DNA of 20,487 nt from a virus. Shown piece after piece: positions 1 through 19,660 of this stretch. The stretch covers positions 1 to 20,487 of the IMG/VR virus record IMGVR_UViG_3300030117_002324. One strand, written 5' to 3'. Made by a program: the position numbers and the translations under genes. Numbering within the stretch: the stretch's first letter is position 1; the number at the start of each line of letters is the position of its first letter. The notes beneath the pieces were generated by a model. That model worked only from the letters and a program-made list of their open reading frames with translations. It was not told where the DNA came from and did not search any database.

Positions 1-809
1 CCAATGCACAAAGAGCATTAGCACAAGCTAAAGAAAGAGCAAGAGTTGCTTTAGTAAAAAGTCAGAAAGAAGCATTGGCATCTGCAAAAGCAAAATCAAA
101 AGCACAATCACCAGCACGAGGTGCAGACAATGCAAAGAAGATACAGACAGTAGTATCAAAAGCTAGTGGTTCAAAGACTACAAGAAAAGTAGTTGAAGCT
201 AATCAGCCAGTAAAGATGTCGCCACCATTAGAAAAAGCAAGAGCAACATCTAAGAGAGGTTTGACTATTACTGGTGGTAAGATAAGTACATACTCAGGTG
301 GTGAAAGTGGACCAAAACAAAAATCTTTGATTTACAAAGACCCTAATACTGGTTCTACAATAGCTACTAAGGAAGCAAGGACAAACATTGCAAAGGGTGG
401 TGACTATAATATTATTGCTTCAACAGCAAGTAAAAAACTTGGCAAAGGTATTCCAACACCGACGACAAAAGAAAGACCAGGCTTAAAAGGAACATCACCT
501 ACTGGTATGCTCTTTAGTCCGACTACTCCATCTATATCTGCTGGTCAGATTATTGGTCAAAAGCCAAAACCAAAAACTGCTGGACCAAAAGGTTTCACAA
601 AGAAAACTCCAACAGACTTTATGAAACAACAAGCACAGATTGTTGATAGACTTGACCAGCCATCACAGACAAAACTAGATTTATTAACTGGTGATCCAGT
701 AAAACCAACAACACCAACTCTTCTTTCTGAGCTTACTAAGAAAAGAAAGAGGAGACAAAAGAGTGGGTTTACTGGAATCATGGCACAGATTAGAACATTG
801 CTGGGATAA
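1..809 (+). CDS. Lysine-rich protein of unknown function, 5' end missing
   Basis: The reading frame is open from base 3 to the TAA at 807-809, so the gene begins upstream of the window. A TTG at 75 could be read as a start, but the frame upstream of it is also open and reads as the same kind of Ala/Lys/Arg-rich sequence, so I reject it. The visible part (about 268 residues) is rich in Lys, Thr, Ser, Pro and Gly and is probably mostly disordered. Short segments such as AGPKGFTKK (from base 579) and a basic KKRKRRQK run near the C-terminus stand out. AGPKG(F/Y)TK recurs in the small gene at 4863-5057. No enzyme motif or membrane segment is visible. The position just before the terminase block suggests a virion or DNA-associated accessory protein, but that is inference. 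The frame is certain; the function is unknown. Confidence 0.75.
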   Translation, partial: NAQRALAQAKERARVALVKSQKEALASAKAKSKAQSPARGADNAKKIQTVVSKASGSKTTRKVVEANQPVKMSPPLEKARATSKRGLTITGGKISTYSGGESGPKQKSLIYKDPNTGSTIATKEARTNIAKGGDYNIIASTASKKLGKGIPTPTTKERPGLKGTSPTGMLFSPTTPSISAGQIIGQKPKPKTAGPKGFTKKTPTDFMKQQAQIVDRLDQPSQTKLDLLTGDPVKPTTPTLLSELTKKRKRRQKSGFTGIMAQIRTLLG

Positions 810-811
810 TT

Positions 812-1294
812 GTGGACCCAGTAACTGCTCTTGCTACAGCTTCAACAGCCTTCAACCTAATAAAAAAAGGCTTCCAGATGGGGAAGGATGTGGAGTCAAT
901 GTATGGTGACATTGGAAGATGGATGGGTGCTGTTTCTGATGTCAACCATGCAGAGAAGATGTCTAAGAACCCACCTTTGTTTAAAAAATTATTTGCTGGT
1001 TCAAGTGTTGAACAAGAAGCAATGGATGCATTTGCTGCGAAAAAAAAGGCAGAAGCTATGGAAGAAGAACTGCGTAACTGGATTAATCTAACGCATGGTC
1101 CTAACGCATGGTCTGATTTATTGAAGATGCAAGCCAAGATAAGAAAGCAAAGACAAGAACAGTTATATGCACAACAAGAACTAAGAGCAAGAGTAATGAA
1201 TATAGCTGGTGTTATATTTCTCTGTACATTAGTTGGTGCTGTGATAATGTGGCTAGGATATTTATTTTATCAAAAACGAACAGGACAACTATGA
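812..1294 (+). CDS. Conserved-type phage protein with C-terminal membrane segment
   Basis: This 160-residue protein starts at a GTG two bases after the previous stop; the start fits the N-terminus MDPVTALATAS, which matches the style of related phage proteins I remember. Residues 1-125 look soluble, mostly helical and charged, with an Ala/Lys/Glu-rich stretch around 70-90. Residues 128-153 form one strongly hydrophobic segment ending in a short basic tail (QKRTGQL), so the protein is probably anchored in a membrane by its C-terminus. The stop TGA overlaps the next ATG (ATGA). Proteins with this layout occur near the terminase in marine phages and have no assigned function. A lysis role (holin or spanin partner) cannot be excluded, but there is only one membrane span and no lysin is visible beside it. 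Confidence 0.8.
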   Translation: MDPVTALATASTAFNLIKKGFQMGKDVESMYGDIGRWMGAVSDVNHAEKMSKNPPLFKKLFAGSSVEQEAMDAFAAKKKAEAMEEELRNWINLTHGPNAWSDLLKMQAKIRKQRQEQLYAQQELRARVMNIAGVIFLCTLVGAVIMWLGYLFYQKRTGQL

Positions 1295-1485
1295 GTTTTT
1301 TACACATACTAAAGCCTGAGGAAAGACGATTACTAAGAACCATTGTTAAGAAAATACATTTACAGTATGTACCTGATGAACATAAATCTGATAGGGAAGC
1401 TGATAAATTAATTGCAACAATAGGTCCAGCTACAGTTGAACAACTTATAAAAGCTGGTAAAGATAACAACATTGACAACATTTAA
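1291..1485 (+). CDS. Small hypothetical protein upstream of terminase
   Basis: The ATG at 1291 overlaps the preceding stop as ATGA and gives 64 residues. The frame can be extended upstream to a TTG at 1249, but that would overlap the previous gene by about 45 bases and encode no recognisable extra sequence, so I choose 1291. The protein is charged and probably helical (LKPEERRLLRTIVKKIHLQY). Its last bases overlap the TTG start of the terminase gene by 14 bases. In many phages a small protein in front of TerL is the DNA-binding terminase small subunit; here the length is short for that family and no helix-turn-helix can be claimed. That role is a positional guess only. Confidence 0.7.
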   Translation: MSFLHILKPEERRLLRTIVKKIHLQYVPDEHKSDREADKLIATIGPATVEQLIKAGKDNNIDNI

Positions 1486-2989
1486 GTACAAACCTGATGG
1501 TGTAGTATTAAAGGAGTTTATGAAAGATGACTCGTTCTTTAGAGGACTGCGTGGTCCAGTTGGAAGTGGAAAGTCGGTGGCGTGTTGTGTCGAAGTCTTT
1601 AGACGAGCATTGGCACAGAAAAAAAACGAAAAGGGTATTCGTAAATCGAGGTGGGCGATTATTAGAAATACCAATCCACAACTTAGGACAACGACAATCA
1701 AAACATGGTTAGATTGGTTTCCAGAAAATACATGGGGTAAGTTTAGATGGGAAGTTCCATATACTCACTTTATAAGCAAAGGTGATATGGAACTTGAAGT
1801 CATATTCCTAGCACTTGATAGACCTGAAGATGTAAAGAAACTACTGTCATTAGAACTAACTGGTATATGGATAAACGAAGCAAGAGAAATACCAAAGAGT
1901 ATTGTTGATGCTTGTACAATGCGTGTTGGTCGTTTTCCATCTATGAGAGAGGGAGGTCCAAGCTGGTCAGGTATAATCTGTGATACTAATGCACCTGAAG
2001 AAGATCACTGGTGGGCGATTATGTCAGGTGAAGTTCCAGTACCAGATCATATCCCAAAAGAAGAAATAAAGATGCTAGTCAAACCTGATAACTGGTTATT
2101 CTTTACACAGCCACCAGGAATGTTGGAAAAGAAAAACGAAGATGGTACTGTCGTCGACTATAAAGAAAACAGTAAAGCAGAAAACAGAAAAAACCTTTTG
2201 AGTACATACTATGAGAATACTGTCAAAGGTAAAACAAAGTCTTGGATAGATGTATATGTAATGAACAAACTTGGTACTATCTCTGATGGTAAACCAATAT
2301 ATCCAATGTTTGTAGGAGATACTCATATATCAAAAGAAGAAATACCAGTAGCAGATGGTCAGCCAGTATATATAGGATTAGACTTTGGACTAACTCCAGC
2401 TGGGGTATTTGCACAGAAAGTAAGAGGTCGTTGGTTAATACAAGCTGAGATAGTTGCTTTTGATATGGGTATAGTAAGGTTCTCTGAACTGTTAAGAGAA
2501 GAGATTGCAACTAAATATTTGAACTGTGAAGCACTGATATATGGTGATCCAAGTGGTGACTTTAGGGCGCAAACAGATGAAAGCACACCATTTCAAATAC
2601 TCAGAGGTGCTGGATTGAGAGCATTACCAGCACCATCTAATGATGTATCTCTAAGAATAGAAGCTGTTAATAAATCATTGATGAAGATGGTTGAGGGTGT
2701 ACCAGCATTTATGGTTGACTATCGCTGTCGACAGCTAATAAAAGGTTTTGAAGGTGGATACCAATATAGAAGATTGCAAGTATCAGGTGAAAGATTTGAT
2801 GACAAACCTGATAAGAATATGTATTCACATATACATGATGCATTACAATATCTTATGTTGGGTGCTGGTGAGGGTAGATCAATCATTGGAAACAATAAAC
2901 CACTACGATCATTTAATGCAAAACCTGAGTTTGATGTTTTTCGTCGACGACCAAAACAAAGAAGAGTTGGCTTGTGGTCACGGATGTAG
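1472..2989 (+). CDS. terL: Terminase large subunit (DNA-packaging ATPase and nuclease)
   Basis: This is the motor that pumps phage DNA into the procapsid through the portal and cuts it. It has 505 residues, a normal length. The N-terminal ATPase carries a Walker A motif GPVGSGKS at residues 28-35. The Walker B-like strand is TGIWINEA at about 130-137, with Asn135 before the catalytic Glu136 where Asp is more usual; Asn here is, as I recall, seen in related marine podophage terminases. The C-terminal RNase H-fold nuclease shows three acidic positions: Asp304 in LDFG, Asp359 in YGDPSGD and Asp456 in IHDALQYL. The chosen start is the TTG at 1472, because KYKPDGVVLKEF resembles the usual N-terminus. 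An ATG at 1520 preceded by AAGGAG (spacing only about 4 bases) is an alternative that would lose 16 residues but keep the Walker A motif. Identity is secure; the start is less so. Confidence 0.97.
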   Translation: MTTFKYKPDGVVLKEFMKDDSFFRGLRGPVGSGKSVACCVEVFRRALAQKKNEKGIRKSRWAIIRNTNPQLRTTTIKTWLDWFPENTWGKFRWEVPYTHFISKGDMELEVIFLALDRPEDVKKLLSLELTGIWINEAREIPKSIVDACTMRVGRFPSMREGGPSWSGIICDTNAPEEDHWWAIMSGEVPVPDHIPKEEIKMLVKPDNWLFFTQPPGMLEKKNEDGTVVDYKENSKAENRKNLLSTYYENTVKGKTKSWIDVYVMNKLGTISDGKPIYPMFVGDTHISKEEIPVADGQPVYIGLDFGLTPAGVFAQKVRGRWLIQAEIVAFDMGIVRFSELLREEIATKYLNCEALIYGDPSGDFRAQTDESTPFQILRGAGLRALPAPSNDVSLRIEAVNKSLMKMVEGVPAFMVDYRCRQLIKGFEGGYQYRRLQVSGERFDDKPDKNMYSHIHDALQYLMLGAGEGRSIIGNNKPLRSFNAKPEFDVFRRRPKQRRVGLWSRM

Positions 2990-3079
2990 TTAGGTTAAGA
3001 GTGTTTTTATTAATATATGGTTTGGCTATGTATCATTTTTGTGCGTGGCTAAAGTCATTCGAATGGAGTATCGAAAATT
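2990..3079 (+). other. Intergenic gap between terminase and portal block
   Basis: This 90-base AT-rich gap is the longest clear break in the window and therefore the likeliest place for a promoter or other control element. I see no convincing stem-loop plus T-run, so I do not call a terminator. TTTGTGCGTGG at 3038-3048 recurs as TTTGTGCGTTG in the gap before the tail fiber (16888-16898) and once inside a gene (7309-7319). A GGAG at 3064-3067 lies 11 bases ahead of the next ATG and may serve as a weak ribosome binding site. Confidence 0.4.
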
Positions 3080-3292
3080 ATGTGTTTTTTTAAAAGTCCT
3101 AAAATGGTAATGCCTGAACCCAAAGTCGATCCTGAAATCGAAAAGCAAAAGGCTGAAGAAAAGAAAAGACAAGAAGCAGAGAAAAAGAAACAAGAAGAGT
3201 TTAACAAAAAGGTTTCTGCTGGTAAGGTTGGTCGTCGATCACTTATATCAGGACAATCAGGTGGTATTGGATATTATAAGGACCCAATGTAA
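3080..3292 (+). CDS. Small charged protein between terminase and portal
   Basis: A 70-residue protein with three parts: a short N-terminus (MCFFKSPKMVMPEPK), a highly charged helical middle made almost only of Lys, Glu, Gln and Ala (about residues 15-45), and a C-terminal GRRSLISGQSGG motif. Small proteins with an MC-F-P start and a GRRSL-(I/L)-(S/T)G end are common beside the portal gene in marine and other podophages. No function is established that I know of; a role in head completion or as a portal-associated peptide is inference. The stop overlaps the portal ATG (TAATG), which suggests coupled translation. The charged middle could form a short coiled coil. Confidence 0.85.
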   Translation: MCFFKSPKMVMPEPKVDPEIEKQKAEEKKRQEAEKKKQEEFNKKVSAGKVGRRSLISGQSGGIGYYKDPM

Positions 3293-4863
3293 TGGTTGAA
3301 GTAAATACAATTACACCAATCAATACTGGTGCTGATAAACCAGTAGATAATTTATTAAGAAGATATGAAAGAGCAAAGTCACTCAGAGATAATTGGACAT
3401 CATTGTTTGAAGAATGTTATGAGTATGCTCTTCCACAAAGAGAAAGTTTTTATTCAGAAACACCTGGTCAAAGAAGAGATGATAAAATCTTTGATGAAAC
3501 TGCCGTCGTCGGTGTACAAGAATTTGCATCAAGGTTGCAATCAGGTCTTGTACCAAACTTTGCAAGATGGGCTGACTTTATTGCTGGTTCAGAAGTACCT
3601 GAAGAACAAAGAGATGAAGTTAATTCTCAACTGCAAGGAGTAACAGATTATGTATTTGAGATTCTACAGAACAGTAACTTTGCTCAAGAAGTACACGAGT
3701 CGTTTCTTGACTGTGCTGTTGGAACTGGTGTTCTATTATGTGAAGAGGGTGATGCAGTTAATCCTGTTAGGTTTTCAGCGATTCCATTACCTCATGTTGT
3801 CTTGGATGTCGGTCCTGATGACAGAGTTGACTCAATATATAGAGAACGTCAAATCAGGGGTGGACAGCTTTTGGTTGCGTATCCGAAAGCTATTATTCCG
3901 CAAAAAATAAAAGAAGCAGTCCTTAGAAGTCCTGAAGAAAAAAGAAAGATACTAGAAATAGTATATAGAGATTATTCTAGAATTAATGTTATGGCTCATA
4001 AATATTGCGTTATTGATCTTGAGACAAAACAGAAGATTTTAGATGAACAGTATGAGGGTGTTGGTTCATGTCCTATAATAGCTTATCGCTGGTCGAAAGC
4101 ATCTGGGGAGGTTTATGGGAGAGGTCCATTAATCAATGCCCTCAGTGCAATCAAGACTACCAACCTTACTATTGAACTAATATTAGAAAATGCACAAATG
4201 GCTATATCAGGTATATATCAGATGGAAGATGATGGAGTTATAAATCCTGATAATGTTTCATTAGTGCCTGGCACTGTGATTCCTAAGTCGCCTGGTTCTG
4301 CTGGATTACAGCCAATAGCAACTGCTGGTAGATTTGATGTCGCTGATCTTGTTTTAAATGATATGCGTAATAATATCAAAAGAGCATTGTATAATGATAT
4401 GCTTGGTGATCCAAACAGAACACCAGCTAGTGCTACAGAGATTGCTGAAAGAATGGCTGATCTATCAAGACGCATAGGTTCTGCTTTCGGTCGATTACAA
4501 GCTGAACTTGTAACACCAGTATTACAAAGAGTTGTACATATACTAAAAAAACAAGGTCGTATTGAGATACCTACAATCAATGGTAGAGAAGTAAAAGTAA
4601 GATCTGTTTCTCCATTGGCACAAGCACAGGCACAACAGGATATTGTTTCCGTCGACAGATTTTTAGAATTAGTTGGTGGTAGATTTGGACCACAGATGAT
4701 TAATTTATTAATAGACAGTGAAGAAACATCTATACATTTAGCAAGAAAGTTTGGTGTTCCTGATAATCTCATAAGAGATAAAGCAAGTCGTGAAGAAATA
4801 ATTAGAATGACAGCACAGCTTGCTCAACAACAACAGCAACAACCTATGATGGAGGAAGAATAA
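3292..4863 (+). CDS. Portal / head-to-tail connector protein
   Basis: This 523-residue protein matches the head-tail connector family of podophages (T7 gp8-like, Pfam Head-tail_con). The family forms a twelve-subunit ring at one vertex, through which DNA is packaged and ejected and to which the tail attaches. Supporting features are the N-terminal RRYERAKSLRDNW helix, the conserved YGRGP motif at residues 275-279 followed by a long helical segment (LINALSAIKTTN), and the LGDPNRTPASATEI stretch, typical of the region before the stem and crown. Length is normal for the family. The C-terminus is a glutamine run followed by PMMEEE and is probably flexible. The gene overlaps its neighbours by one base on each side (TAATG), so it is likely translated as part of one operon with TerL and the scaffold. 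Confidence 0.96.
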   Translation: MVEVNTITPINTGADKPVDNLLRRYERAKSLRDNWTSLFEECYEYALPQRESFYSETPGQRRDDKIFDETAVVGVQEFASRLQSGLVPNFARWADFIAGSEVPEEQRDEVNSQLQGVTDYVFEILQNSNFAQEVHESFLDCAVGTGVLLCEEGDAVNPVRFSAIPLPHVVLDVGPDDRVDSIYRERQIRGGQLLVAYPKAIIPQKIKEAVLRSPEEKRKILEIVYRDYSRINVMAHKYCVIDLETKQKILDEQYEGVGSCPIIAYRWSKASGEVYGRGPLINALSAIKTTNLTIELILENAQMAISGIYQMEDDGVINPDNVSLVPGTVIPKSPGSAGLQPIATAGRFDVADLVLNDMRNNIKRALYNDMLGDPNRTPASATEIAERMADLSRRIGSAFGRLQAELVTPVLQRVVHILKKQGRIEIPTINGREVKVRSVSPLAQAQAQQDIVSVDRFLELVGGRFGPQMINLLIDSEETSIHLARKFGVPDNLIRDKASREEIIRMTAQLAQQQQQQPMMEEE

Positions 4864-5640: not shown

Positions 5641-5891
5641 AGAAACCTCAACGATCCTTAGTTGCATGGACTAAACAGAAATGGCGAACCAAAAGTGGTA
5701 AGCCGTCGACACAAGGAAAAGATGCAACTGGAGAAAGATATTTACCTTCCTCTGCAATTAGTGCATTATCTGACGAAGAGTACGCAAGGTCAACTAAAGC
5801 AAAACGTCGTGCCATTAAAAAAGGCAAACAGTTTTCTAAACAACCAAAACGTATTTCGGATAAAACTAAATCGCATAGGAAGTTTACATGA
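5637..5891 (+). CDS. Small basic protein 5, W-T-K-Q-K-W module (DUF5872-like C-terminal module)
   Basis: 84 residues, starting in the ATGA overlap with the previous gene. Recognisable parts are RSLVAWTKQKWRTKSGKPS, GERYLPSSAISALSDEEY and the closing KAKRRAIKKGKQFSKQPKRI. Twenty-five residues are Lys or Arg. In bacteria I remember this module as the C-terminal half of a single protein whose N-terminal half equals the preceding gene, so the two phage products may work as a pair. A TCGTCGAC stretch at 5703-5710 is one of the GWCGWC loci. No catalytic motif is visible. The next gene overlaps the stop as ATGA. Confidence 0.88.
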   Translation: MKKPQRSLVAWTKQKWRTKSGKPSTQGKDATGERYLPSSAISALSDEEYARSTKAKRRAIKKGKQFSKQPKRISDKTKSHRKFT

Positions 5892-6854: not shown

Positions 6855-7356
6855 CTATACAGCTACGATAGGAAGAATTGATATTGTTTCTTCAACAAGT
6901 GAAGATGCAAAGTATCTACAAGAAAATCTAAGACCTGAGGATGTTCGTGAATGTATCATTCATGGTGTTTCACCTAATCGTGCATTACATATGCCACTAG
7001 TTGATAAAGGCTGTAAAACATTTACAGCACTTGTCGACGACATTCCTATATGTATGTTTGGTACAATGCAGTATTCAAACAACAGTAGCTTTGCTTCTAT
7101 ATGGTTACTTGGCAGTAAAGATATAGAGAAAAACCACTTTAGTTTTTTAAAAGCATCACGAGAGATTATTGAACTTTTGCAAAAAGATTATGAGGTATTA
7201 GAAAATGTTGTACCATCAGATCATAAAAGAACAATAACTTGGTTAGCTTGGCTTGGGTTTAGTTTTTATTCTGTACCAGTATATGTAAATAGTTTTGAGT
7301 GTTTACGTTTTGTGCGTTGTCAAGAAGGTTTAGAAATGCCAATGCTTAATTCGTAA
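6844..7356 (+). CDS. T7 gp13-like protein with GNAT-like pattern
   Basis: The likely start is the ATG at 6844 (MVRNYTATIGRIDI), overlapping the scaffold end by 11 bases; the frame also has an ATG at 6826, deeper inside the scaffold. The product has 170 residues. The pattern is ENLRPEDVREC near the N-terminus, a central TALVDDIPICMFGTM, then FASIWLLGS, FLKASREIIELLQ, YEVLENVVPSDHKRTITWLAWLGFSF. It follows the family of T7 gp13 (I recall Pfam DUF2833), which has an acetyltransferase-like (GNAT) fold and in T7 is needed for proper virion assembly. It is longer than T7 gp13 (138 residues). Whether it binds acetyl-CoA is unknown. GTCGACGAC at 7033-7041 encodes its Val-Asp-Asp. Confidence 0.85.
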   Translation: MVRNYTATIGRIDIVSSTSEDAKYLQENLRPEDVRECIIHGVSPNRALHMPLVDKGCKTFTALVDDIPICMFGTMQYSNNSSFASIWLLGSKDIEKNHFSFLKASREIIELLQKDYEVLENVVPSDHKRTITWLAWLGFSFYSVPVYVNSFECLRFVRCQEGLEMPMLNS

Positions 7357-7472: not shown

Positions 7473-8280
7473 TACTATTGATACTGCTTTTATTAGACAG
7501 TTTGAATCTGAAGTACACTTAGCATATCAACGTATGGGTTCTAAATTAAGGAACACTGTGCGTACTGTTGCTAATGTGAGAGGAAGCACAGTTCGCTTTC
7601 AGAAGATTGGTAAAGGTTCAGCTTCTACTAAAAGTAGAAATGGTCAAATCACACCTATGGAATTGACCCACACAACTGTTGATGTAACAATGGAAGATCA
7701 TTATGCTGCCGAATATATTGACAAGTTGGATGAAATCAAAACTAATATAGATGAACGTCAGGCAATCGCTAAGTCTGAAGCTGGTGCTTTAGGTAGAAAG
7801 ACTGATGAAATATTAATCACTGCTATGGATAGTGGTGCTAACTCTACTCAAATTCATGACACAAGTTCTGCTATTGAAAAGGCAGATGTGTTAGCATTGT
7901 TTGAGCAGTTTGGTGTTGCTGACATTCCAGAAGATGGTGGTCGATATGTAGCAATGAACCCAAAGGGATTTGCTGATCTATATGCAATCAATGAGTTTGC
8001 TAGTGCAGACTTTGTTGGTGAAGCTAACTTACCTTTTGCTGGTGGAATGACAGCTAAGAACTTCTTAGGTTTTATGTTCTTCTCTTCTTCTTCAGTAACT
8101 GCTGGTAAGAATATGGCTTATCACACTTCTGCTGTAGGACTAGGTATTGGTGCCGACGTCACAACAGAATTAAATTACATACCTGAAAGGGTATCTCACC
8201 TTGCAACGTCTATGATGTCAATGGGTGCTGTTGTTATTGATGACAATGGTGTCTATGAGTTCTTAGACAATAACAGTTAG
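7465..8280 (+). CDS. Major capsid protein
   Basis: 271 residues, directly downstream of the scaffold and with a strong ribosome binding site. The N-terminus (IDTAFIRQFESEVHLAYQ) and the following RMGSKLRNTVRT, VRGSTVRFQKIGKG and DHYAAEYIDKLDEIKTNIDER segments match a capsid family common in marine podophages and distinct from T7 gp10A, which is longer (345 residues). The family is expected to have the HK97 fold: an N-terminal arm, an E-loop around residues 40-70, a long helix near ERQAIAKSEAGALGRKTDEIL, and P and A domains in the C-terminal half. The end (MGAVVIDDNGVYEFLDN) is also typical. It forms the icosahedral shell. The call rests on remembered family pattern plus position. Confidence 0.93.
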   Translation: MANTIDTAFIRQFESEVHLAYQRMGSKLRNTVRTVANVRGSTVRFQKIGKGSASTKSRNGQITPMELTHTTVDVTMEDHYAAEYIDKLDEIKTNIDERQAIAKSEAGALGRKTDEILITAMDSGANSTQIHDTSSAIEKADVLALFEQFGVADIPEDGGRYVAMNPKGFADLYAINEFASADFVGEANLPFAGGMTAKNFLGFMFFSSSSVTAGKNMAYHTSAVGLGIGADVTTELNYIPERVSHLATSMMSMGAVVIDDNGVYEFLDNNS

Positions 8281-8559: not shown

Positions 8560-9174
8560 ATGAGTCAATCAACATCAGCGACATCTCCTATCGATATATG
8601 TACTCGGTCACTGGTGTTGATTGGCGCACAACCAATTACTTCTTTTAGTGATGGATCAAACGAAGCATTGGTTGCTGTTAATCTTTATGAAGATACTATT
8701 CAAGCTAGTCTTGTAAATACAAGATGGAGATTTGCAGTAAACCAAGCAATAGGTAACAGACTATCAGATGAACCAACTGGTAGATATAATTCAGCTTACC
8801 AAATACCTTCTGACTCATTAATGATAAATGCTGTTACAGTAAATGATAGAAATATTGACTATCAGATTTATGGTAACTTTATCTTCAATGATGCAAGTGT
8901 TAATGATGTCGTCGTCATAGATTATAACTTTAGACAATTAGAAGCTAAGTTTCCAGCATACTTTGTACAGGCTGTTGTCTATGAATTGTCTGGACACTTT
9001 GCATTAGCACTAGCAAGAAATGATAGTATGTCTAACAATATGTTTGAGAAAGCAAGGTTCTTTATGCAGAAAGCAAGAACACTTGATAGTCAACAGCAAA
9101 CAACTCTTAGACTTTCTACTAATCGTTTTGTTACATCAAGAAGGACAACTGGTACATTATCGAGTAATGTCTAA
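8560..9174 (+). CDS. Tail tubular protein A (T7 gp11-like adaptor)
   Basis: 204 residues. After a Ser/Thr-rich N-terminus comes PIDICTRSLVLIGAQPITSFSDGSNEA, the normal beginning of podophage gatekeeper/adaptor proteins, then VAVNLYEDTIQASLVNTRWRFA, and a later helical part AYFVQAVVYELSGHFALALAR. The family forms a ring below the portal and connects it to the nozzle. The first half is helical, the middle carries a beta insertion (NAVTVNDRNIDYQIYGNFIF), as in T7 gp11. GTCGTCGTC at 8908-8916 encodes three valines in a row. There is no obvious Shine-Dalgarno site ahead of it. The stop overlaps the next start (TAATG), as expected for the pair A and B. Confidence 0.92.
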   Translation: MSQSTSATSPIDICTRSLVLIGAQPITSFSDGSNEALVAVNLYEDTIQASLVNTRWRFAVNQAIGNRLSDEPTGRYNSAYQIPSDSLMINAVTVNDRNIDYQIYGNFIFNDASVNDVVVIDYNFRQLEAKFPAYFVQAVVYELSGHFALALARNDSMSNNMFEKARFFMQKARTLDSQQQTTLRLSTNRFVTSRRTTGTLSSNV

Positions 9175-11177
9175 TGGCTCGTATTCGAATACCTCTCAAC
9201 AACTTTGAAAGAGGTGAAGTCTCACCAGCAATGACATCAAGAACTGATTTGAATGTATATGTTCAATCAGCAGAAAAAGTAAGAAACTTTTTTTTGATGG
9301 CAGAGGGTGGAGTTAAACGTAGACCAGGCACAGAGTTTATTCATAAGTTTACTACTATCACAGTAGACAATGCAAAAAGATTACAAGTAAAGATAGAACC
9401 ATTTTTATTTTCTGACGACGAAAGATACATTGTAGCATTTAGTGCTGGCAGATGTGACTTCTTTCGTATAGTTGCATCAACTGGTGCAATATCTCATATA
9501 CAAGCATTAACAGCAGATACAGATAGTACAACATTGCCGTGGACTGTTGATACAATAGAACATCAAACTATAGCACAGTCTGCTGATAATATGTTTGTTG
9601 CTCATAGTTCTCATATACAAATGAGAATAGTTAGAACTGGACTTACAACATTTGAAGTAAGAAAGTTTGCATTTGATGAAACAACAGCTAATGATGAAAA
9701 ATTCCAACCATATTTTGCATTTCAAGAAAGTGGTGTAACTCTTACTCCAAGTGGTACAAGTGGTAGTATTACATTGACAACTTCTGCAAACTATTTTGAA
9801 AGTGGTCATGTAGGAACTATTATAAGATACAAAGGTAATGAATGTCTTGTTAGTGGTTTTACAAGTGCAACTCAAGTCAATGCAACTGTTCGTAAAACAT
9901 TATCAGGAACATCAGCAGACACAGATTTTGATGAACAATCATATTCTACACTTAGAGGTTTTCCAAGTGCTGTTACATTCCATGAAGATAGACTTTGGTT
10001 TGCTGGTACAACAAGTCAACCTGATGGAATATGGTCGTCGAAAACTTCAGAGTTTTTTAACTTTGATGTTGGTACAGCACAATCAAATGAGAGCATACAG
10101 TTTGCAATCAGTGCTGGTGAGTTCAACTCTATTAAACATTTAACAAGTTCACGAGATTTACAAGTGTTCACAAGCACTTCTGAATTTTTTATACCATCTT
10201 TTGCAAGCAGTGCATTGACACCAACAAATGCACAGATACGACGACAAACACCTTTTGGTAGTGCAAGTGTACGACCTACACCATTTGATGGTGCTACAGT
10301 ATATGTTCAAAGAGGTGGTAGAACAGTAAGAGAGTTTGTATTTAGTGACGAGGAAAGTGCGTATGTATCAACACCTATTTCACTATTAAGTTCACATCTT
10401 GTGATCGACCCAACGCAAATGACAGCTATGCGTGGTGCGTTAACAAGACCTGAAAGTTATGCTTTCTTTGTAAATAGTGATGGTACAATCGCAGTGTTTC
10501 ACTCAATTCGTAATGAACAAAAGGCTGGGTGGACATTGTGGACAACCTCTGATACTGGCACTACTGGTGGATTTCACAGTATGTGTACTATTGATGAACG
10601 ATTGTTTTGTGTTGCTAAAAGAGATTTAGGTGGTGGTACTGTAAGGTTTATGCTAGAGGAGTTCTTGGATACAGCTACTTTAGATTGCAGTGATGACTTC
10701 TCAGGAAGTAATGGAGTGTTCACAACAAATTCAATTTTTGAAAACAATGCAAAGGTCGACGTCGTATCTGGTAATGATTATCTTGGTAACTTTACTCAAG
10801 GATCAAATCAAATAGATGTATCTGCTGTAAGTACAACAAGCTCAGCAGAAATTGGTTTTGGTTATACTGGTGTATTAACTACTCTTCCATTAGATGCAAA
10901 TGTAGATGGTGGTCCTCTTACAGCAGAACCAAGACAAATAACAAGGGTTAATTTAGACCTGGTTGATACATTATCTGTATCTGTAAGTAGTGGTGGTACA
11001 GCAGTACCATTGATATTACAAAGTACAACAGATGATTTTTCACAAGGTTTATCAAAATTTACTGGTAAAAAAGAGTTTAGAATGTTGGGTTATAGTACAG
11101 ACCCAAGAGTTTTAATAACTCAAACTGCACCAGTTACTTTACAACTTAATGGAATGGTAGTGGAGGTAGCTTTCTAA
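9174..11177 (+). CDS. Tail tubular protein B (T7 gp12-like nozzle)
   Basis: 667 residues, following tubular protein A with a one-base overlap. The N-terminus is diagnostic: a short basic start, then NNFERGEVSPAMTSRTDL, AEKVRNFFLMAEGGVKRRPGTEF, found in the nozzle or stabilisation proteins of podophages. Further family-like pieces are PSAVTFHEDRLWFAGT, TSEFFNFD and TPFGSASVRPTPFDGATVYVQRGGRTVREF. The protein is expected to be a beta-propeller-like nozzle in six copies that closes the tail and carries fiber contacts. It is shorter than T7 gp12 (794 residues). Four GWCGWC loci lie in this gene (9414, 10034, 10240, 10755), in all three codon phases. Confidence 0.94.
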   Translation: MARIRIPLNNFERGEVSPAMTSRTDLNVYVQSAEKVRNFFLMAEGGVKRRPGTEFIHKFTTITVDNAKRLQVKIEPFLFSDDERYIVAFSAGRCDFFRIVASTGAISHIQALTADTDSTTLPWTVDTIEHQTIAQSADNMFVAHSSHIQMRIVRTGLTTFEVRKFAFDETTANDEKFQPYFAFQESGVTLTPSGTSGSITLTTSANYFESGHVGTIIRYKGNECLVSGFTSATQVNATVRKTLSGTSADTDFDEQSYSTLRGFPSAVTFHEDRLWFAGTTSQPDGIWSSKTSEFFNFDVGTAQSNESIQFAISAGEFNSIKHLTSSRDLQVFTSTSEFFIPSFASSALTPTNAQIRRQTPFGSASVRPTPFDGATVYVQRGGRTVREFVFSDEESAYVSTPISLLSSHLVIDPTQMTAMRGALTRPESYAFFVNSDGTIAVFHSIRNEQKAGWTLWTTSDTGTTGGFHSMCTIDERLFCVAKRDLGGGTVRFMLEEFLDTATLDCSDDFSGSNGVFTTNSIFENNAKVDVVSGNDYLGNFTQGSNQIDVSAVSTTSSAEIGFGYTGVLTTLPLDANVDGGPLTAEPRQITRVNLDLVDTLSVSVSSGGTAVPLILQSTTDDFSQGLSKFTGKKEFRMLGYSTDPRVLITQTAPVTLQLNGMVVEVAF

Positions 11178-11662
11178 TGTGTATTCCGTCACCACAATTA
11201 TTATTATTTACAACAGTAGCATCAGGTGTAAGTGGAATGATGTCTGCAAGGGCTGGTGCAAAGGAAGCACTTAGGGCTGGTCAAAGAACTGCTGAAAGAA
11301 TAGAACAACAAAAACAAGTAGCACAACTTACTGGTGAACAGGAAACAACTGCATTACTTCAAGCCTTTACTCAATCAATGGCGTCTAATATTGCTATGAG
11401 GGGTATCATGGGAAGAGATGCAAGTGATCCATCATTTAGAGCATTTGAAAAAAATAACTTTGCTACACTGCAAACTGATTTAGAAAGAATGGCTATTCAA
11501 GGAAAAAATATTCAAAAAAATTATGATCTGCAAAAGTTTGAAGCTGTATCAGGTGCAACTGATAGAGCTAAATCTTTACGACGACAAGGATTATTAAATC
11601 TTGTTGGTGCTGGTACAGAGGGAATAATGAGATATGATAAAGTCAAAGTTGGAGATGATTGA
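11177..11662 (+). CDS. Small internal virion protein (T7 gp14-like position)
   Basis: 161 residues, overlapping the nozzle stop by one base. The N-terminus has a hydrophobic stretch (PQLLLFTTVASGVSGMM), followed by long, Ala/Gln/Glu-rich helical segments (AGQRTAERIEQQKQVAQLTGEQ) and a basic C-terminal part. The Ala-rich helices with a short hydrophobic start, and the place right after tubular protein B and before two very large proteins, match T7 gp14, which is ejected first and forms the channel in the outer membrane. Sequence similarity to T7 itself is not obvious, so the role rests on position and composition. The last bases overlap the next start as TGATG. Confidence 0.8.
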   Translation: MCIPSPQLLLFTTVASGVSGMMSARAGAKEALRAGQRTAERIEQQKQVAQLTGEQETTALLQAFTQSMASNIAMRGIMGRDASDPSFRAFEKNNFATLQTDLERMAIQGKNIQKNYDLQKFEAVSGATDRAKSLRRQGLLNLVGAGTEGIMRYDKVKVGDD

Positions 11663-13797
11663 TGGTAAAGATAGAAAGATTTAAAAACCAAGTATTTAAC
11701 AAACCAGTAGGTGTTGTACGTTCACAAGAAAGAACAGCAGAGTCAGAAACTTGGGAAACAATATCAAGAATATCATCAGCTTTATCAGGTGAGTTTTATA
11801 AAAAAGCAGTTGATGAAGCAAAGGAAGCTGGAACAAGAAAAGCATTATCTGTCGACGTCTTTGATGAAAATATGCAAATAACAAAAGCACCTTTGTCTAT
11901 GGGAACGATAGGTACAAAAGCATTTGAACAAACAATGCTTCGTAGATATGAAACAAATATGAGAAGTTTAATAGACAATAAAATATCAAATGCACTAAGA
12001 GATAATCCAACAGACGCAGATCAATATAGCATTGATGTTTCAATAGCTACTGCTGGTTTAATAGATAATGCTGATCCAAGTATGAAAGGTATTCTTACAG
12101 ATTATGCAACAGCAAAAATAGCTATAGGTAATAACACAGTATTAGCAAATACAAAAAAAATAGAAGATGAAAATTTAATATTACAAACTTCTGAGCAAAG
12201 TGAATTAATGGCTAATCAAGCTATTAATGCGTTTGCAAATGGAGATATCAATACTGCTAATCAATTAATGCAAACAATAGAACATGAATATAATCAGCTT
12301 GTGAATGAAGGTGTAATAACTGGAGGAGGAGCCAATAACAGAATAGTAGAATTGCGTAGACGAGTAATGGAACAAAGAATTGGTATAGCATTAAATAACC
12401 TTTCTTCTGAAGAAATAATAATGGTAGCTGATAGTTTTGGTAAACAACAATTAGATGATCTACCTGATACAAAAATTATGATAGAAACAGGTAGATCATT
12501 TGATCGTATTAAATCATTGCTTAGTAATAATCCTCATATATTAGATAATCCAACAATTAAAAGAGTAATCAATTCTGTTAAAGTAAGCCAAGCACAATAT
12601 GAAGATTCACAAAAACAAGCTAATGAAGCAAAAAATCTTACATTAGCATTTGAACAAGGTATACGAATAGATATTGGTAGAAAAGAACAACCAGTATATT
12701 CACAATATGTATTTGGTAAGTCAGGTGTAGAACTACAAACAACAAAAACTGGTTTACTTTTACCACCAACTAAAGATCAAATGCTTTTGTTAGCTGATTC
12801 AAAAAATCCAAACAGTATTAATTTTTATAGAATAATTGCTGAACAAGGTGTTCTTCCAAAAGTAATGGAAGACAAATTTGATAGACTTACTAAAGGAACA
12901 TTAGATGCAGAAGAATCATTTGCTGTTCTTGAAATATATCAAAACATGGCAAACAATATGTCACTTCAAGGTGTGCATAGAGATTTGACTTTAGGTATGG
13001 GTATGAGTCAAACAGTATCAAAAAAAATGAAAGCACTAAATGCTATGTTAACTTTTAATAGTACAATGGAAGGAATACAAGATGCTGTAAATAGACTTAA
13101 TTCATCTGATTTACAAAACTTTAATAATTTATTAAATGACATGAATATGGAAATGCAAAGTAAAAATAATGATAAATTTATAGCAAATGTAAGTACAGCA
13201 AAAAGCATTATACGAAGTGAGTTATTTAAAGATATACAAGATAATTTTATTGTAGAACAAGTTTTAGATGAAACAATGTATTTAGGTAATTTAATTGGTG
13301 TTGAAAATGCCATAGACACAATGGTTAGTACTGTAAATAGAGGATGGGTAGAATCAAAATACGCTGTTGATATGCACTCAGGAGGAACAATTAAAAGAAC
13401 AAGATTTGCACCTGAAGTTATATTTCAATCTGAAGCATTAACAACATTTGAAAATAAAGTAAAACAACTTTCTGGTATTAGTAATCCAGTTTTAGGTGAA
13501 AATGTATTTGTAATTGTTGACCCAAACTCTGCTAGATCAAATGTTAGATACTATATTGCAACAGGAGAAGAAGGTGATTTAACTCCAGTTGTTGAAGATA
13601 ATCAACTTGTTTCAATAGAACTTGAAGAATTTGCAGATCAAATAAGTGACCAATATAATAAGATGATAGAAGAAAATTTATTATATGCTGGTAAAATTAT
13701 ACAACAAACAAAGGATGCAAAAAACTATAAGTTTTTATTTCATGGAAGTAGTGGTGGTTTTGGTCCTGGCTTAAAATTTAAAATGGGAAATAATTAA
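11662..13797 (+). CDS. Large internal virion / ejection protein
   Basis: 712 codons when read from a TTG at 11659; the ATG at 11662 is a better start because GGAG lies eight bases upstream and it overlaps the previous stop as TGATG. That gives 711 residues. The protein is Asn/Gln/Lys-rich, predicted mostly helical, with no lysozyme or transglycosylase motif that I can see. The place in the operon matches T7 gp15, which with gp14 and gp16 forms the ejection machinery across the periplasm. GTCGACGTC occurs at 11851-11859. It stops at TAA 13795-13797, and the following large gene begins at the very next base in the same frame, so a read-through product would be a single chain of about 1,740 residues. 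Confidence 0.82.
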   Translation: MVKIERFKNQVFNKPVGVVRSQERTAESETWETISRISSALSGEFYKKAVDEAKEAGTRKALSVDVFDENMQITKAPLSMGTIGTKAFEQTMLRRYETNMRSLIDNKISNALRDNPTDADQYSIDVSIATAGLIDNADPSMKGILTDYATAKIAIGNNTVLANTKKIEDENLILQTSEQSELMANQAINAFANGDINTANQLMQTIEHEYNQLVNEGVITGGGANNRIVELRRRVMEQRIGIALNNLSSEEIIMVADSFGKQQLDDLPDTKIMIETGRSFDRIKSLLSNNPHILDNPTIKRVINSVKVSQAQYEDSQKQANEAKNLTLAFEQGIRIDIGRKEQPVYSQYVFGKSGVELQTTKTGLLLPPTKDQMLLLADSKNPNSINFYRIIAEQGVLPKVMEDKFDRLTKGTLDAEESFAVLEIYQNMANNMSLQGVHRDLTLGMGMSQTVSKKMKALNAMLTFNSTMEGIQDAVNRLNSSDLQNFNNLLNDMNMEMQSKNNDKFIANVSTAKSIIRSELFKDIQDNFIVEQVLDETMYLGNLIGVENAIDTMVSTVNRGWVESKYAVDMHSGGTIKRTRFAPEVIFQSEALTTFENKVKQLSGISNPVLGENVFVIVDPNSARSNVRYYIATGEEGDLTPVVEDNQLVSIELEEFADQISDQYNKMIEENLLYAGKIIQQTKDAKNYKFLFHGSSGGFGPGLKFKMGNN

Positions 13798-16700
13798 TTG
13801 GTAGACGTCGGCAGACCAATAATTGCATATGATAGTATGTCTATGGGTGAGCAAGATCCATCATTTTGGGAAGGAATGATGGCTACATATGGCTATCAAT
13901 ATAGACCAATAATGGGTGCATTATATAGTAGTTCTTTTGAAGAAGATGAAAATTTCAATGTATTAGATCATTTAACAGTAGAAGATTTAGATGACAGAAA
14001 CCAAATAACTATTTTAGGCACAGCGAAATCTATGGATCATTTGCACTATTTAAGAACGCATACATCTAAGATGCGTGAGAATAGAGAAATATTAAGCAAA
14101 AGTGGTTGGGGTTCAATGATTACTGCTGGTATTCTTGATCCAGTAAATCTTTTGTCATTACCATTTAAAGGTGTTGGTATTACTGCAAGAGCATTATCAG
14201 GTGCAAAGTCAGGTTTTTTTATTGGTGCTGGAACAGAATTATTACGAGCGCCCTTTGAACCTGATGCTACCCTGACAGAAAGTGGCATTAATATTGTTGG
14301 GTCGACGGCATTAGTTGGAGCATTAGGTGGTATTACTGGTGCTTTCTCTGGTCGTGCATCACAAAGATTTACTGCTGAACAAACTGATGTAAATAATTCT
14401 TTAAATCAAACTGTAAATCCAAATCAAGCATTTGATTATAAAAATAATTGGTTTGTAAATACACCATTTTATAAATTAGTTGCAACACCAATGAAAGATA
14501 TTATTCAAGGCAACTATCCACAATCAGTTAAAAAGTTAATTACTCAAGTAGGTGCTGATGGTGGTTTAACAAGTATGATGAATAAAGCTGGTCAAGGTAT
14601 TTCATCTGTATTTATGAGATCAGTTACATATATGGGTGACTACTATGCTCACTCTCGTAAATTAAATGGTATCTATCATAATTTTATGAATCAAACAAAT
14701 CAACCAATAGGATTAACAAGTGCTGGGTTTCGTGAGTTTGCTGAAAGATTAGCAAGAGAAAGAATATTAAGAGAAGCACAGCCAAACAGAGCAAGACTAT
14801 CAAGATTTGAAGAAGAATTTATTAATGAAATGGATTTGTTCTATACAAAATATGGAACTGATATGCTTAATAATGGATTACTTGCTACAAGAAATTCTAT
14901 CACCAGGCAAATTGATAATCTAAGAATTACAATCGACGACATAAGAAATCAAATAAGAACAGAAACAAACCCAAGAGCAAAAGTTAAGCTAAGAGAAATA
15001 CTTGGTAAACAAAGAGGTAAATTAAAAGACTCAGAAGATTTATTAGCAAGTGGTTATAACCCATTATATCGTGGTGTTTATTATCCAAGATACTTTAATA
15101 TTGATGCAATAGCTAATGATATGGATGGTTTTAAAACAATACTTAGAGATTGGTACACAGCTAATCCATTAAATCCAAATGCAACAGCTTCTGATATTGA
15201 AAGATCAGTAAACAAAACAGTTGATAGGATTTTAAATAAACAAAATCTTGAAGATGATTTTATGGGATATGGTTTATCTAAACATCTTAGACATAGAGAA
15301 CTAGATATACCAAATCATTTGTTATTAGATTTTATTGAGATAAACCCACTGGATACTGCAATGTATTACATGATGAGAACTGGCTCTAAGATTGAATTTG
15401 CAAATACATTTAAAGGCAAATCAATGGATGATCTTGTAGATCAATCTGAATTAGATATGATTCGTCATGGTAATACAGCACAAGAAATATCTTTGGCAAA
15501 ACAAAATCTATTTCATATGTATGATCGTGTTGTAGGCACACCAATACAAAGACCAGATGCTTTAAATAGAAGAATATCAAGAGCATTAACTGATTGGACA
15601 GCATATGCTTTTCTTGGTCGTGCTGGATTGTCGTCGTTGCCAGAATTAGGAATGATTATTATGCAACACGCAAGTAAACAGGGTGCGTTAGGTCTTGGTC
15701 AAATAGGTGGAACATTAAAAGGTTTGACAGATTTAAAAGCATTAGGTTTGAGTGCAAAAGAAGTTCAGATTGCTGGTGAAGCATTAGATATGATATTAGG
15801 TGTTGCTCATAATAGAATGTATGAAGATTTTTTAAGATCACCTTTTACTAAAGGATTAAGTAAAATTAATGAACAAGGTAAAAGAATATTTTATACAGCT
15901 AATTTATTAGCACCTATTACACAAATAACAAAACAAATGTCTGGTATTCTTGGTCAACATTCATTAGTAGATCGTTCACTTAGACTTGTTGCTGGAACAA
16001 TAGATCAGGAAGGCATTGAACTTCTTGCAAGATATGGAATAACAATAAGAGATGCACGAAAAATAAAAAGACTTGTCGACGACGGCACAATACAAACAAG
16101 TGATACTGGCAGATTGTTTCTAGCAAATACAGAAAGTTGGGGAGATCAAAGATTAGTAAGAAAGTTTCGTGGTGCATTAGCTACAATGACAAGAAATACT
16201 ATTATTAATGCTACACCAGCAGATAAACCAAAAATAATTGATGGTGTTGTATATGCAAGAATGAATCCAGCATTAAAAGCACTAGGTTTTAAAGTAGATA
16301 AAAGATCAAGTACAATAGGATATGAAGTAACAAGAATTGAAAATGGCTTAATGGCACTACCATTTCAGTTTTGGAACTATACATTAGGTGCTACTACAAA
16401 AATACTTGCATCAGGATTTGATGGTGAAAGAACTGGTAAGGTTGCTGGATTTGCTACTATGCTGGCACTTGGCTATTTAACTCTATATATGAAAAATCCA
16501 AGAAGTTTTAACAATATGGATTATGAAGATCAGCTTACAAGAGCAATAGATCAAACTGGTATTACTGGCATATACAGTGATTTATTTTATATGGGATTAC
16601 ACGCAAGACATAGGATGGGTAATTTAGATAGAGATGATACATTAATACAACCAAAGTATAGAGTAAATCCACCATCTGATTTGGGTGCTGGTTTAGAAAC

Positions 16701-16887: not shown

Positions 16888-16930
16888 TTTGTGCGTTGAA
16901 GTTTATAAAATAGAATATTAGGGTGCGATT
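16888..16930 (+). promoter_or_regulatory. Candidate promoter before the tail fiber
   Basis: This 43-base gap holds TTGTGC at about 16889-16894 and TAGAAT at 16911-16916 with a 16-base gap. That is a weak -35 (three of six) with a good -10 (five of six) for a housekeeping sigma factor. The element TTTGTGCGTTG recurs almost exactly in the other clear gap at 3038-3048. A weak AGGG at 16920-16923 may serve as ribosome binding site. The promoter is inference and could be chance in AT-rich DNA. Confidence 0.25.
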
Positions 16931-19660
16931 ATGACATTAGATATTAGTGCAACAAGTCCAAGAGTCCAATATACAGTAGGATCGTCGTCGACAACAACAT
17001 TTGCATATGGCTTTCCTATCTTTCAAGATGCTGATTTAAAAGTATTTGTAGGCTCAACACTTAAAACATTAACAACACATTACACTGTAACTGGTGCTGG
17101 TACTACAAGTGGTGGCAATGTTGTAATGACAACAGGTAATGAAGTAACTAATGCAGATGTAACGATTGTTCGTGATATCACAATATCCAGGACAACTGAC
17201 TTTCCTACTTCAGGTTCATTTCAGGTTGATAGTCTGAATACAGAACTAGACACAATCACAGCAGTACAGCAAGAACTAGAAGATGACATTAGTCGATCAC
17301 TAAAGCTATCAGATGAAGATGCAACGGCAACCTTAACTCTTCCCCTCAAAGATGCACGAAAAGGCAGATACCTTGCATTTAACGCAACAACTGGTAACGC
17401 AGAAGCTGGACCAACTCAAACAGATGCAACACTAATTGCTACTGTTACCTCTGATATTGCAACACTTGCCGATATACAAGATGGCACAACAGCTACAAAT
17501 GCTATTACAACTGTTGCTGGTGTAGCTAGTAATGTAACAACTGTTGCTGGTGTAGCTAGTAATGTAACAACTATAGCTACTGGTACAACTGGTGGTAATT
17601 CCAATCTAACAAACTTAAATACAATCGCTACTGGTACAACTGGTGGTAATGCAAACCTTACTCAAATAAATGCAGTAGCTGGAAAAGTTACAGAAATAGG
17701 AAGATTAGGAACTGCTGATGCTGTAGCTGATATGGCATTACTTGGACTGACAGATGTTATAGCTGATATGGCATTGTTGGGTGATAGTGCAGTTATAGCT
17801 GACATGGCACAACTTGCTAATTCAGATATTATTGCTGATATGGCACAACTTGCAAACTCAACTATAATAGATGACCTTGCTATATTAGCTAATAGTACAA
17901 TTACAGACGATATGGCATTACTTGCAGTAACAGATGTAATAGATGATATGGCACTGCTTGCTGATTCAACAGTAATAACTAATATGGCAAACTTAAATGC
18001 GTCAGGTGTTATTACTAATATGGCTAATCTTAATGCATCTGGTGTAATTACTAATATAGCAAATCTTAATGCTTCAGGTGTACTAACTAACATTGCTAAT
18101 TTAAATGCTTCAGGTGTGCTAACAAATATAGCTAATCTTAATGCTACTGATGTTATAACAAACATTGGAACTGTTGCTAGTAATGTATCAGGAGTAAATA
18201 GTTTTGCAGAAAGATATAGAATATCTAGTTCTGCACCAACAAGTTCTTTAGATGTTGGTGATTTATATTTTGATACAACAGCTAATGAATTAAAAGTTTA
18301 TAAGTCTAGTGGCTGGAGCGCTGCTGGATCAACAGTAAATGGTACGTCAGCTAGATTTCATTATAATATATCAGGTACACCAAATTCTGTTACTGGTTCT
18401 GATGCAAATGGTAATACTCTTGCTTATGATGCTGGATTTGCAGATGTCTATGTTAATGGTGTTAGAATGTCACCTGATGATATTACTATTACATCTGGAA
18501 CTTCAGTAGTATTTGCTTCTAATCTAGCTGATGGTGATGATGTAGATATTGTTGCTTTTGGTACATTTAATGTTGCAAACATTGTATCTACTGGAGCATT
18601 GAATACTGGTTCTATTACAAGTGGCTTTGGGAATATAGATACTGGGTCGTCGACAATAACAACTACTGGTGCAATTAGTGGTGGAACATTAACTGGTACA
18701 TTACAGACAGCATCACAAACAAATATTACTGGTGTCGGTGCATTAAATGCTGGGTCAATAACAAGTGGCTTTGGTGCAATAGATAATGGGTCAAGTGCTA
18801 TTACGACTACTGGAGCAATATCTGGTGGTGCTTTAACAGCTACTACAATGACTGCTAGTGGTATAATTAAAACAGATAATACTACAGATGCTACTACTAC
18901 TACAGATGGTTCTTTACAAACAGATGGTGGATTATCTGTAGCCAAAGATGCAGTTATAGGAAATGATTTGTTAATGAAATCTGATTCTTCTGCAATAAAA
19001 TTTGGTGCAGATAGTGAAATGGTTTTAACACATTCTGCTGATGCTGGTTTAACATTATTACAAACAGCTTCCCCTGGTTCATTACTAACATTAGGAACAA
19101 CAAGTACAAGTGTTAGTGATGATGCTTTTATAGGTGGAATTGATTTTTCTTCTGGTTCAACACCTACTGTTAATGCAAGAATACACGCTAGACAAGAGGG
19201 AACTTCTGAAAATGGTGGTAAGATTGAATTTGAAACAAGAAGAGAAGGTGGATCTTTACTTAAAAGTTTAAAAGTAGATGATGAAGGAAGACTTTCTGTA
19301 GCATCAGATGGACTTGTAAGTAGAAATCAAATAGTTTCTCAATACACAGTAGGTTGCGACACATCAGCTACTGTTATTGCAAACACAACTAGATTTAGAA
19401 CGTATGGTTCTTTCTTTGTTGTTTCTGGTCGTGACCATAACTCAAGTGCAAATAGATTTGTTGACATATTAGTTGCAAGTTTGAATGGAAGTGTGGTTGT
19501 AGTTTCTGGTAATACAGTTAGAGGTTCACCAGCAAGTAGGTCATACAGCAATTCAAGTGAAAGATTAAATTTAACTATGGGTGGTGGTAGTTACTCTGTA
19601 TGTGTTATGGGATTTGATTTTAATAATGCTGGAAACACATTAACAGATGGTGCAGATTAA
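16931..19660 (+). CDS. Tail fiber protein with T7 gp17-like N-terminus and long repeat shaft
   Basis: 909 residues. Residues about 5-150 form the N-terminal anchor found in T7 gp17-type fibers: VQYTVGSSSTTTFAYGFPIF, then a strand-rich middle, ending in RTTDFPTSGSFQVDSLN and LDTITAVQQELEDDISRSLKL. This part binds the tail nozzle. A repeat shaft follows: two exact copies of TTVAGVASNV, two 17-residue units with ATGTTGGN, then twelve units of 12 residues (residues 266-409, type TNMANLNASGVI). After that come RYRISSSAPTSSLDVGDLYF and STVNGTSARFHYNISG, and a duplicated segment GALN-(x)-GSITSGFG. The end (about 790-909) has no recognised receptor domain. Such fibers are homotrimers that bind the host surface. 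The fiber identity is firm; receptor and exact fold are not known. Confidence 0.94.
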   Translation: MTLDISATSPRVQYTVGSSSTTTFAYGFPIFQDADLKVFVGSTLKTLTTHYTVTGAGTTSGGNVVMTTGNEVTNADVTIVRDITISRTTDFPTSGSFQVDSLNTELDTITAVQQELEDDISRSLKLSDEDATATLTLPLKDARKGRYLAFNATTGNAEAGPTQTDATLIATVTSDIATLADIQDGTTATNAITTVAGVASNVTTVAGVASNVTTIATGTTGGNSNLTNLNTIATGTTGGNANLTQINAVAGKVTEIGRLGTADAVADMALLGLTDVIADMALLGDSAVIADMAQLANSDIIADMAQLANSTIIDDLAILANSTITDDMALLAVTDVIDDMALLADSTVITNMANLNASGVITNMANLNASGVITNIANLNASGVLTNIANLNASGVLTNIANLNATDVITNIGTVASNVSGVNSFAERYRISSSAPTSSLDVGDLYFDTTANELKVYKSSGWSAAGSTVNGTSARFHYNISGTPNSVTGSDANGNTLAYDAGFADVYVNGVRMSPDDITITSGTSVVFASNLADGDDVDIVAFGTFNVANIVSTGALNTGSITSGFGNIDTGSSTITTTGAISGGTLTGTLQTASQTNITGVGALNAGSITSGFGAIDNGSSAITTTGAISGGALTATTMTASGIIKTDNTTDATTTTDGSLQTDGGLSVAKDAVIGNDLLMKSDSSAIKFGADSEMVLTHSADAGLTLLQTASPGSLLTLGTTSTSVSDDAFIGGIDFSSGSTPTVNARIHARQEGTSENGGKIEFETRREGGSLLKSLKVDDEGRLSVASDGLVSRNQIVSQYTVGCDTSATVIANTTRFRTYGSFFVVSGRDHNSSANRFVDILVASLNGSVVVVSGNTVRGSPASRSYSNSSERLNLTMGGGSYSVCVMGFDFNNAGNTLTDGAD
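17507..17566 (+). repeat. Perfect 30-base tandem duplication in the fiber gene
   Basis: Two adjacent identical 30-base units (17507-17536 and 17537-17566) encode TTVAGVASNV twice. In contrast to the diverged repeats downstream, the two copies are identical at DNA level, so this looks like a recent slippage or recombination event. Confidence 0.95.
17570..17671 (+). repeat. Two 51-base units encoding TIATGTTGGN modules
   Basis: Units 17570-17620 and 17621-17671 encode TIATGTTGGN followed by (S/A)NLT-(x)-(L/I)N. A 24-base core is identical; the rest has diverged. They form part of the fiber shaft. Confidence 0.85.
17726..18157 (+). repeat. Twelve 36-base (12-residue) tandem repeats of the fiber shaft
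   Basis: Exactly 432 bases, twelve units without gaps. They grade from ADMALLGLTDVI through DDMALLADSTVI to TNMANLNASGVI and TNIANLNATDVI. The hydrophobic positions (3, 6, 11 and 12) and the Ala at position 4 are kept. Neighbouring late units are identical or nearly so as protein but differ at six to seven synonymous bases. Confidence 0.95.
18590..18841 (+). repeat. Duplicated 36-residue segment of the fiber
   Basis: TGALNTGSITSGFGNIDTGS and VGALNAGSITSGFGAIDNGS open two copies (18590-18697 and 18734-18841), both continuing to (T/A)ITTTGAISGG. The period is 144 bases (48 residues). Part of the same sequence reappears in the downstream fiber-type gene at about 20038-20070. Confidence 0.85.

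Follow-up and report, generated by a model that had tools for sequence, protein, structure and literature searches.

Chi, KOPS and DNA uptake words are short, enriched genome-wide in all codon phases, and conserved in density rather than in position. RacA of Bacillus subtilis binds ram sites dispersed over the chromosome and condenses it (PMC6593407), and BldC assembles into cooperative filaments on repeated sequences (PMC5859096). On the phage side, gp94 of mycobacteriophage Alexphander is reported to be of MerR type, with a proposed action across the whole phage genome (PMC11242194), and restriction-site avoidance is a lineage-specific distortion of short palindromes (PMC6286503). The subject here is the word GWCGWC (W, A or T) in IMG/VR virus record IMGVR_UViG_3300030117_002324, positions 1 to 20,487. 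This whole 20,487-nucleotide stretch, hereafter the window, represents the structural half of a small phage of podovirus-like type; among isolates, Pelagibacter phage EXVC031P Hodr comes closest (66% in the portal). A literature search found no report of this word.

A first-pass annotation, made from the letters of the window, had described an AT-rich, CpG-poor genome with 24 GWCGWC loci, nine of them carrying three GWC triplets, and the recount agrees: the window has a GC content of 35% and a CpG observed/expected ratio of 0.37 (CpG depleted, TG/CA raised), and holds 33 GWCGWC in 24 loci, with nine (GWC)3. Base composition alone would give approximately 8 GWCGWC by simple arithmetic, while Markov models of order 1 and order 2 give 2.9 and 3.6. 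The order-3 model, a check that the annotation had proposed, gives 20.2, an expectation that is high because the model already absorbs the word's own tetramers (GWCG/WCGW). Three triplets in a row are as rare by chance as had been supposed, with 0.04–0.14 expected (1.1 at order 3) compared to nine observed. The codon phases claimed for the loci were exact, with start offsets 0, 1 and 2 at 12, 5 and 7 loci (Val/Asp, Arg and Ser/Thr, respectively), and the quoted peptides VVD, VDD, SSST, SST, RRR and RRQ are all present in open reading frames (ORFs). Codon or amino-acid bias, already judged an insufficient cause, fails to reproduce the count: synonymous shuffles yield 6.0 ± 2.2 GWCGWC (maximum 17 in 2000 shuffles), 6.6 ± 2.3 when junction dinucleotides are also preserved, and 7.6 in a repeat using automatic ORF calls. 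Shuffles with or without junction dinucleotides contain 0.10–0.14 (GWC)3, and never more than 2; over the protein-preserving shuffles as a whole the figure is 0.1–0.2.

The 7-mer GWCGWCG/CGWCGWC is present at 23 of the 24 window loci; therefore, the unit is not the hexamer, but a degenerate palindrome of 9 bp, GWCGWCGWC, built on the core CGWCG and tolerant at its ends. The centre of the core is A or T at 60 of 60 sites in the relative G050 and at 55 of 55 in G057, and a G or C lies 4 bp from the palindrome centre on at least one side. Alignment of sites on CGNCG, which itself fixes the C and G of that motif, reveals symmetric preferences, with W favoured at –3 and G at –4 (frequency 0.66–0.76 in four lineages); the palindromic G/C preference at ±4 is common to all four. 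Enrichment of CpG pairs is limited to lag 3 and its echo at lag 6, indicating a sharp spacing rule, and one-step neighbour words are undepleted (GWTGWC, 23 versus 16–19).

The enrichment characterizes a clade with portal identity of at least 86%, in which the word is approximately 10-fold enriched genome-wide, without strand preference and in every codon phase, at a density of about one word per 650–900 letters. G050 (L231 and L232; 33.1 kb, 97.6–98.3% identical to the window) carries 70 GWCGWC in 51 loci and 19 (GWC)3, at sites that span the entire genome, early genes and non-coding DNA included. This genome is near-complete, with completeness uncertified, and a gene missing from a contig may mean an incomplete contig. 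GWCGWCG occurs 38 times forward and 38 times reverse in G050 (reversed control pattern, 1/0), and G057 (81–86% identical) carries the word at 34 loci over 30.8 kb. Enrichment is not clear in the short L091, and is weak for GWCGWC in the clade outgroup L009 (ratio 2.7). However, L009 contains 93 GNCGNC versus 35 in shuffles, with a central base that tracks background composition; its centre has relaxed from W to N, which is a real specificity shift. The L009 form, TGNCGNCGNCA, may resemble the ram consensus, TGACG...CGTCA. More than 100 further relatives are without the word, among them some at 80–81% portal identity and some whose capsid and portal proteins are 80% identical.

The first-pass annotation had also raised the question of whether positions or density are conserved among relatives. 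The window sites are kept at 21 of 30 positions in L168 (84% DNA identity; control words, 0.68), at 12 of 27 in L161 (77%; control words, 0.53), and at 3 of 26 in L009 (control words, 0.45). Conservation of position, being no greater than that of control words, was rejected as a signature of the word; density is kept, and the sites therefore turn over. Gains occur via T>C, A>G, G>C, A>C and T>G, with some changes of 2–3 bases. The residues encoded at sites are conserved equally to residues elsewhere; the word is thus accommodated to the protein sequence. Most clade genomes space their sites more evenly than chance would (coefficient of variation 0.48–0.76 versus ~0.94 expected; p 0.0006–0.14), with p values of 0.011 in G050, 0.00065 in G057 and 0.0007 in G053. 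In all comparisons, unique sites are farther from the shared ones than expected at random, each at only P about 0.84–0.92 and individually non-significant. Selection on density, working around proteins, fits these observations better than a mutational process. The annotation's proposal of selection on the DNA itself is well supported by the use of all phases, the failure of shuffles, undepleted neighbours, even spacing, varied gain substitutions, and relatives with similar proteins that are without the word.

Table 1. Occurrences of the word in the window, found by word search with strand unassigned (.), and other features discussed in the text (positions without a prefix are those of the window).
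Feature	Position	Strand	Remark
Site GACGAC (CGACGAC)	461..466	.	
Site GTCGTCGAC	2150..2158	.	three triplets; terminase large subunit gene
Site GTCGAC	2727..2732	.	sole locus without 7-mer
Site GTCGACGAC	2943..2951	.	three triplets
Site GTCGTC(GA)	3231..3236	.	
Site GTCGTC (CGTCGTCG)	3505..3510	.	
Site GTCGAC (CGTCGAC)	4651..4656	.	portal gene
Site GTCGAC (CGTCGAC)	5705..5710	.	
Site GTCGACGAC	7033..7041	.	three triplets
Site GACGTC (CGACGTC)	8155..8160	.	major capsid gene
Site GTCGTCGTC	8908..8916	.	three triplets
Site GACGAC(GA)	9414..9419	.	
Site GTCGTC(GA)	10034..10039	.	
Site GACGAC (CGACGAC)	10240..10245	.	
Site GTCGACGTC	10755..10763	.	three triplets
Site GACGAC (CGACGAC)	11580..11585	.	
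Site GTCGACGTC	11851..11859	.	three triplets
Site GACGTC(GG)	13804..13809	.	
Site GTCGAC(GG)	14301..14306	.	
Site GACGAC (CGACGAC)	14935..14940	.	
Site GTCGTC(GT)	15630..15635	.	
Site GTCGACGAC	16075..16083	.	three triplets
Site GTCGTCGAC	16984..16992	.	three triplets
Site GTCGTCGAC	18646..18654	.	three triplets
Basic low-complexity protein gene	3..809	+	GPKGFTK-type repeat; between terminase genes; secondary candidate reader
Small candidate winged-helix gene	L232:9555-9812	-	homologues L234:9036-9281, L158:17125-17361
Clade helix-turn-helix protein	L231:265-552		
Clade helix-turn-helix protein	L231:461-706		
phrog_757 DNA methyltransferase-like gene	L158:13219-13854		L009
Hypervariable gene copy, p5018	L231:5018-5689		
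Hypervariable gene copy	L169:9715-10308		
Hypervariable gene copy	L160:314-952		
Hypervariable gene copy	L235:16282-16929		
Imperfect inverted repeat	L231:3220-4373		centre near 3790

The pattern is real, strong, at the level of DNA, and clade-specific; its function we infer. The interpretation that we favour, with about as much belief as doubt, is that the word marks dispersed sites recognized by a sequence-specific protein that binds double-stranded DNA and has an architectural role, and we rank it above a modification system, followed by a host signal. Each site would serve a neighbourhood of ~1 kb, and the protein at these sites may bridge, condense, anchor or guard phage DNA during replication or packaging. 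A nucleoid- or segregation-type DNA-binding protein provides the best fit, as a candidate only, and, among the readers suggested at first pass, a phage modification enzyme is weakened by the gene content described below. Every phage in which the small winged-helix gene was detected has the word; the gene is absent from all other genomes tested, and all further contigs with it are word-rich. An AlphaFold model of its product (pLDDT 81.5) gave pSK1 Par (probability 0.99), RacA (0.93) and BldC (0.77) among its top Foldseek matches, and the nearest solved folds to the putative reader would be those of DNA-segregation and nucleoprotein-filament proteins. This protein is the leading candidate for reading the word, albeit a doubtful one. 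Somewhat more plausible, and still tentative, is the broader notion of a phage-encoded genome-organising system, in which a small winged-helix protein would act on evenly spaced palindromic sites genome-wide, with specificity and sites co-evolving (the central base changing from W to N between sister lineages). The gene for the basic protein, too, was detected in no phage lacking the word. Together with the winged-helix gene, its neighbour, p5018 and a MazG-like protein, it is common to G050, G057 and L009, and not to the other genomes compared.

Several points weigh against this architectural role. The association of gene and word comes from a single clade, and is effectively one evolutionary event. 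The Foldseek E-values are weak (0.1–0.5), a Pfam search of the winged-helix candidate returned no helix-turn-helix (HTH), and direct binding of the word by this protein is something that we infer from the model. The two other clade HTH proteins are equally possible readers, and a palindrome centre that demands A/T is as typical of restriction/modification enzymes as of HTH proteins. In addition, even spacing is weak in L009 (p about 0.06), and the spacing tests are not independent, since some sites enter more than one of them.

We consider it unlikely that the word is instead read by a host methyltransferase or restriction-modification system with CGWCG as its site, the clade gaining from many marks. 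Type II enzymes typically recognize sites of this kind, a 5-bp palindrome centred on W, and an ArdC antirestriction gene is present in the clade; CGWCG is also the site of Hpy99I. Moreover, CGWCG is strongly avoided in GC-richer relatives, with observed/expected counts of 0/13.7 in G032 (L188-L189), 1/15.8 in G017 (L192-L193), 1/12.9 in G015 (L194-L195) and 1/10.3 in G021 (L196-L197), genomes in which CGSCG is not avoided. Therefore, a CGWCG-reading enzyme probably exists somewhere among the hosts of the family. However, restriction drives avoidance, not enrichment, we know of no benefit from extra marks, and the G/C preference at ±4 extends outside CGWCG. Nor did a phage methyltransferase co-occurring with the word, which the first pass had proposed to look for, appear: none was found among the G050 early genes searched, and the phrog_757 gene, present in L009 only of 38 records, was rejected as the word's partner on that account. 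A signal read and rewarded by host machinery, such as a Chi-like recombination site, a nuclease stop, or a site for a host nucleoid protein, is slightly less likely still. The clade early region encodes, besides ArdC, a lambda-O-like initiator, a RecE-like exonuclease, an Erf annealase, a resolvase-like protein, a Cro/CI-type HTH protein and a second small HTH-like protein. No polymerase is among the genes examined, and the clade therefore probably depends on its host for replication and repair; the hosts of sister phages may differ. Unlike Chi sites, which are directional, the word is balanced between strands in G050. SAR11 loci (1.43 Mb) show a GWCGWC observed/expected ratio of only 1.4, and two SAR11 genomes are without (GWC)3. 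SAR11 was rejected as the source of the word, not being enriched, and the clade terminase was found in 0 of 397 Pelagibacterales genomes. A host-wide signal was not seen in SAR11, although SAR11 may not be the host, and a recombination- or uptake-type signal of the kind suggested at first pass may be read by another one.

Improbable, too, is a functionless bias of mutation or repair, whereby short-patch repair or gene conversion favours CpG in a GW-CG-WC context. Such a bias would suit the depletion of CpG, the raised TG/CA and the many gains by T>C or A>G, but not the undepleted GWTGWC, the transversions and multi-base changes among the gains, or the even spacing. We give least credence to a by-product of avoiding other words, even though the family avoids many restriction words and the GCSGC enrichment of sister lineages (7–20 fold over expectation in L164 (Hodr), L172, L182, L184, L180 and others) arose in that way. 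Nearly all copies in these lineages encode Ala-Ala pairs; in Hodr, 42 of 44 GCSGC are Ala-Ala codon pairs in codon phase 0. GCSGC is found in nearly that phase only, beside depleted GCWGC, whereas GWCGWC occupies all phases and has no depleted one-step neighbour. GCSGC and similar sister words were rejected as parallel cases, since they are phase-0 by-products of near-total avoidance of GCWGC, a site of restriction type.

Other features of these genomes were recorded alongside the word. The window strongly avoids GCWGC (3 versus 33), CATG (30 versus 105) and GGCC (0 versus 18), which looks like restriction-site avoidance, and CACCTGC is 6–9 fold enriched in L204, L174, L176 and L182, as counted without a codon-phase split. 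GGGTCA in G014, which is T7-primase-site-like, was dropped (15 versus 10 in the codon shuffle, maximum 16), as was a primase-site idea for GTC, with no support beyond the triplet. The gene adjoining the small terminase is hypervariable, at 31–46% protein identity where structural genes are ~95–98% DNA-identical; a structure model of p5018 was of low confidence (pLDDT 56) and left unused. Between the early and late operons of L231 lies an imperfect inverted repeat of ~1.1 kb with arms 79–95% complementary, one being the p3248 gene and the other its mirror copy in decayed form; an origin or an inverted duplication is possible.

Words enriched genome-wide, such as Chi, KOPS, uptake words and ram, have in each case pointed to a machine that reads DNA, and the present word, with its sharp base rules, belongs to a small clade of marine phages that apparently lack a polymerase. 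If the clade does encode its own genome-organising system, phages would have an equivalent of centromere- or nucleoid-type systems. The sister lineages without the word and with an altered word make the identity of the reader and the evolution of its specificity directly testable. Restriction-site avoidance offers a likeness in that CGWCG is avoided by some relatives of the window phage, but the sign is opposite in the clade, where the word is enriched. The word shares with Chi, KOPS and uptake words its genome-wide enrichment in all codon phases and its maintained density, yet Chi and KOPS are directional, whereas the phage word is palindromic and confined to one phage clade. Alexphander gp94 differs in its little sequence discrimination and DinB-like domain, and the excerpts of its description report no enriched word for that phage (PMC11242194). 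With respect to RacA and ram, the sites are dense near the origin in the bacterium but spread evenly over the phage genome, and the candidate of the clade is without sequence homology to RacA. What the two have in common is a set of dispersed GC-rich sites, serving in the case of ram a winged-helix protein of MerR type by which the chromosome is condensed and anchored (PMC6593407); the palindromic site of the phage clade is likewise GC-rich and enriched across its replicon. For the candidate reader, a RacA-like fold is predicted.

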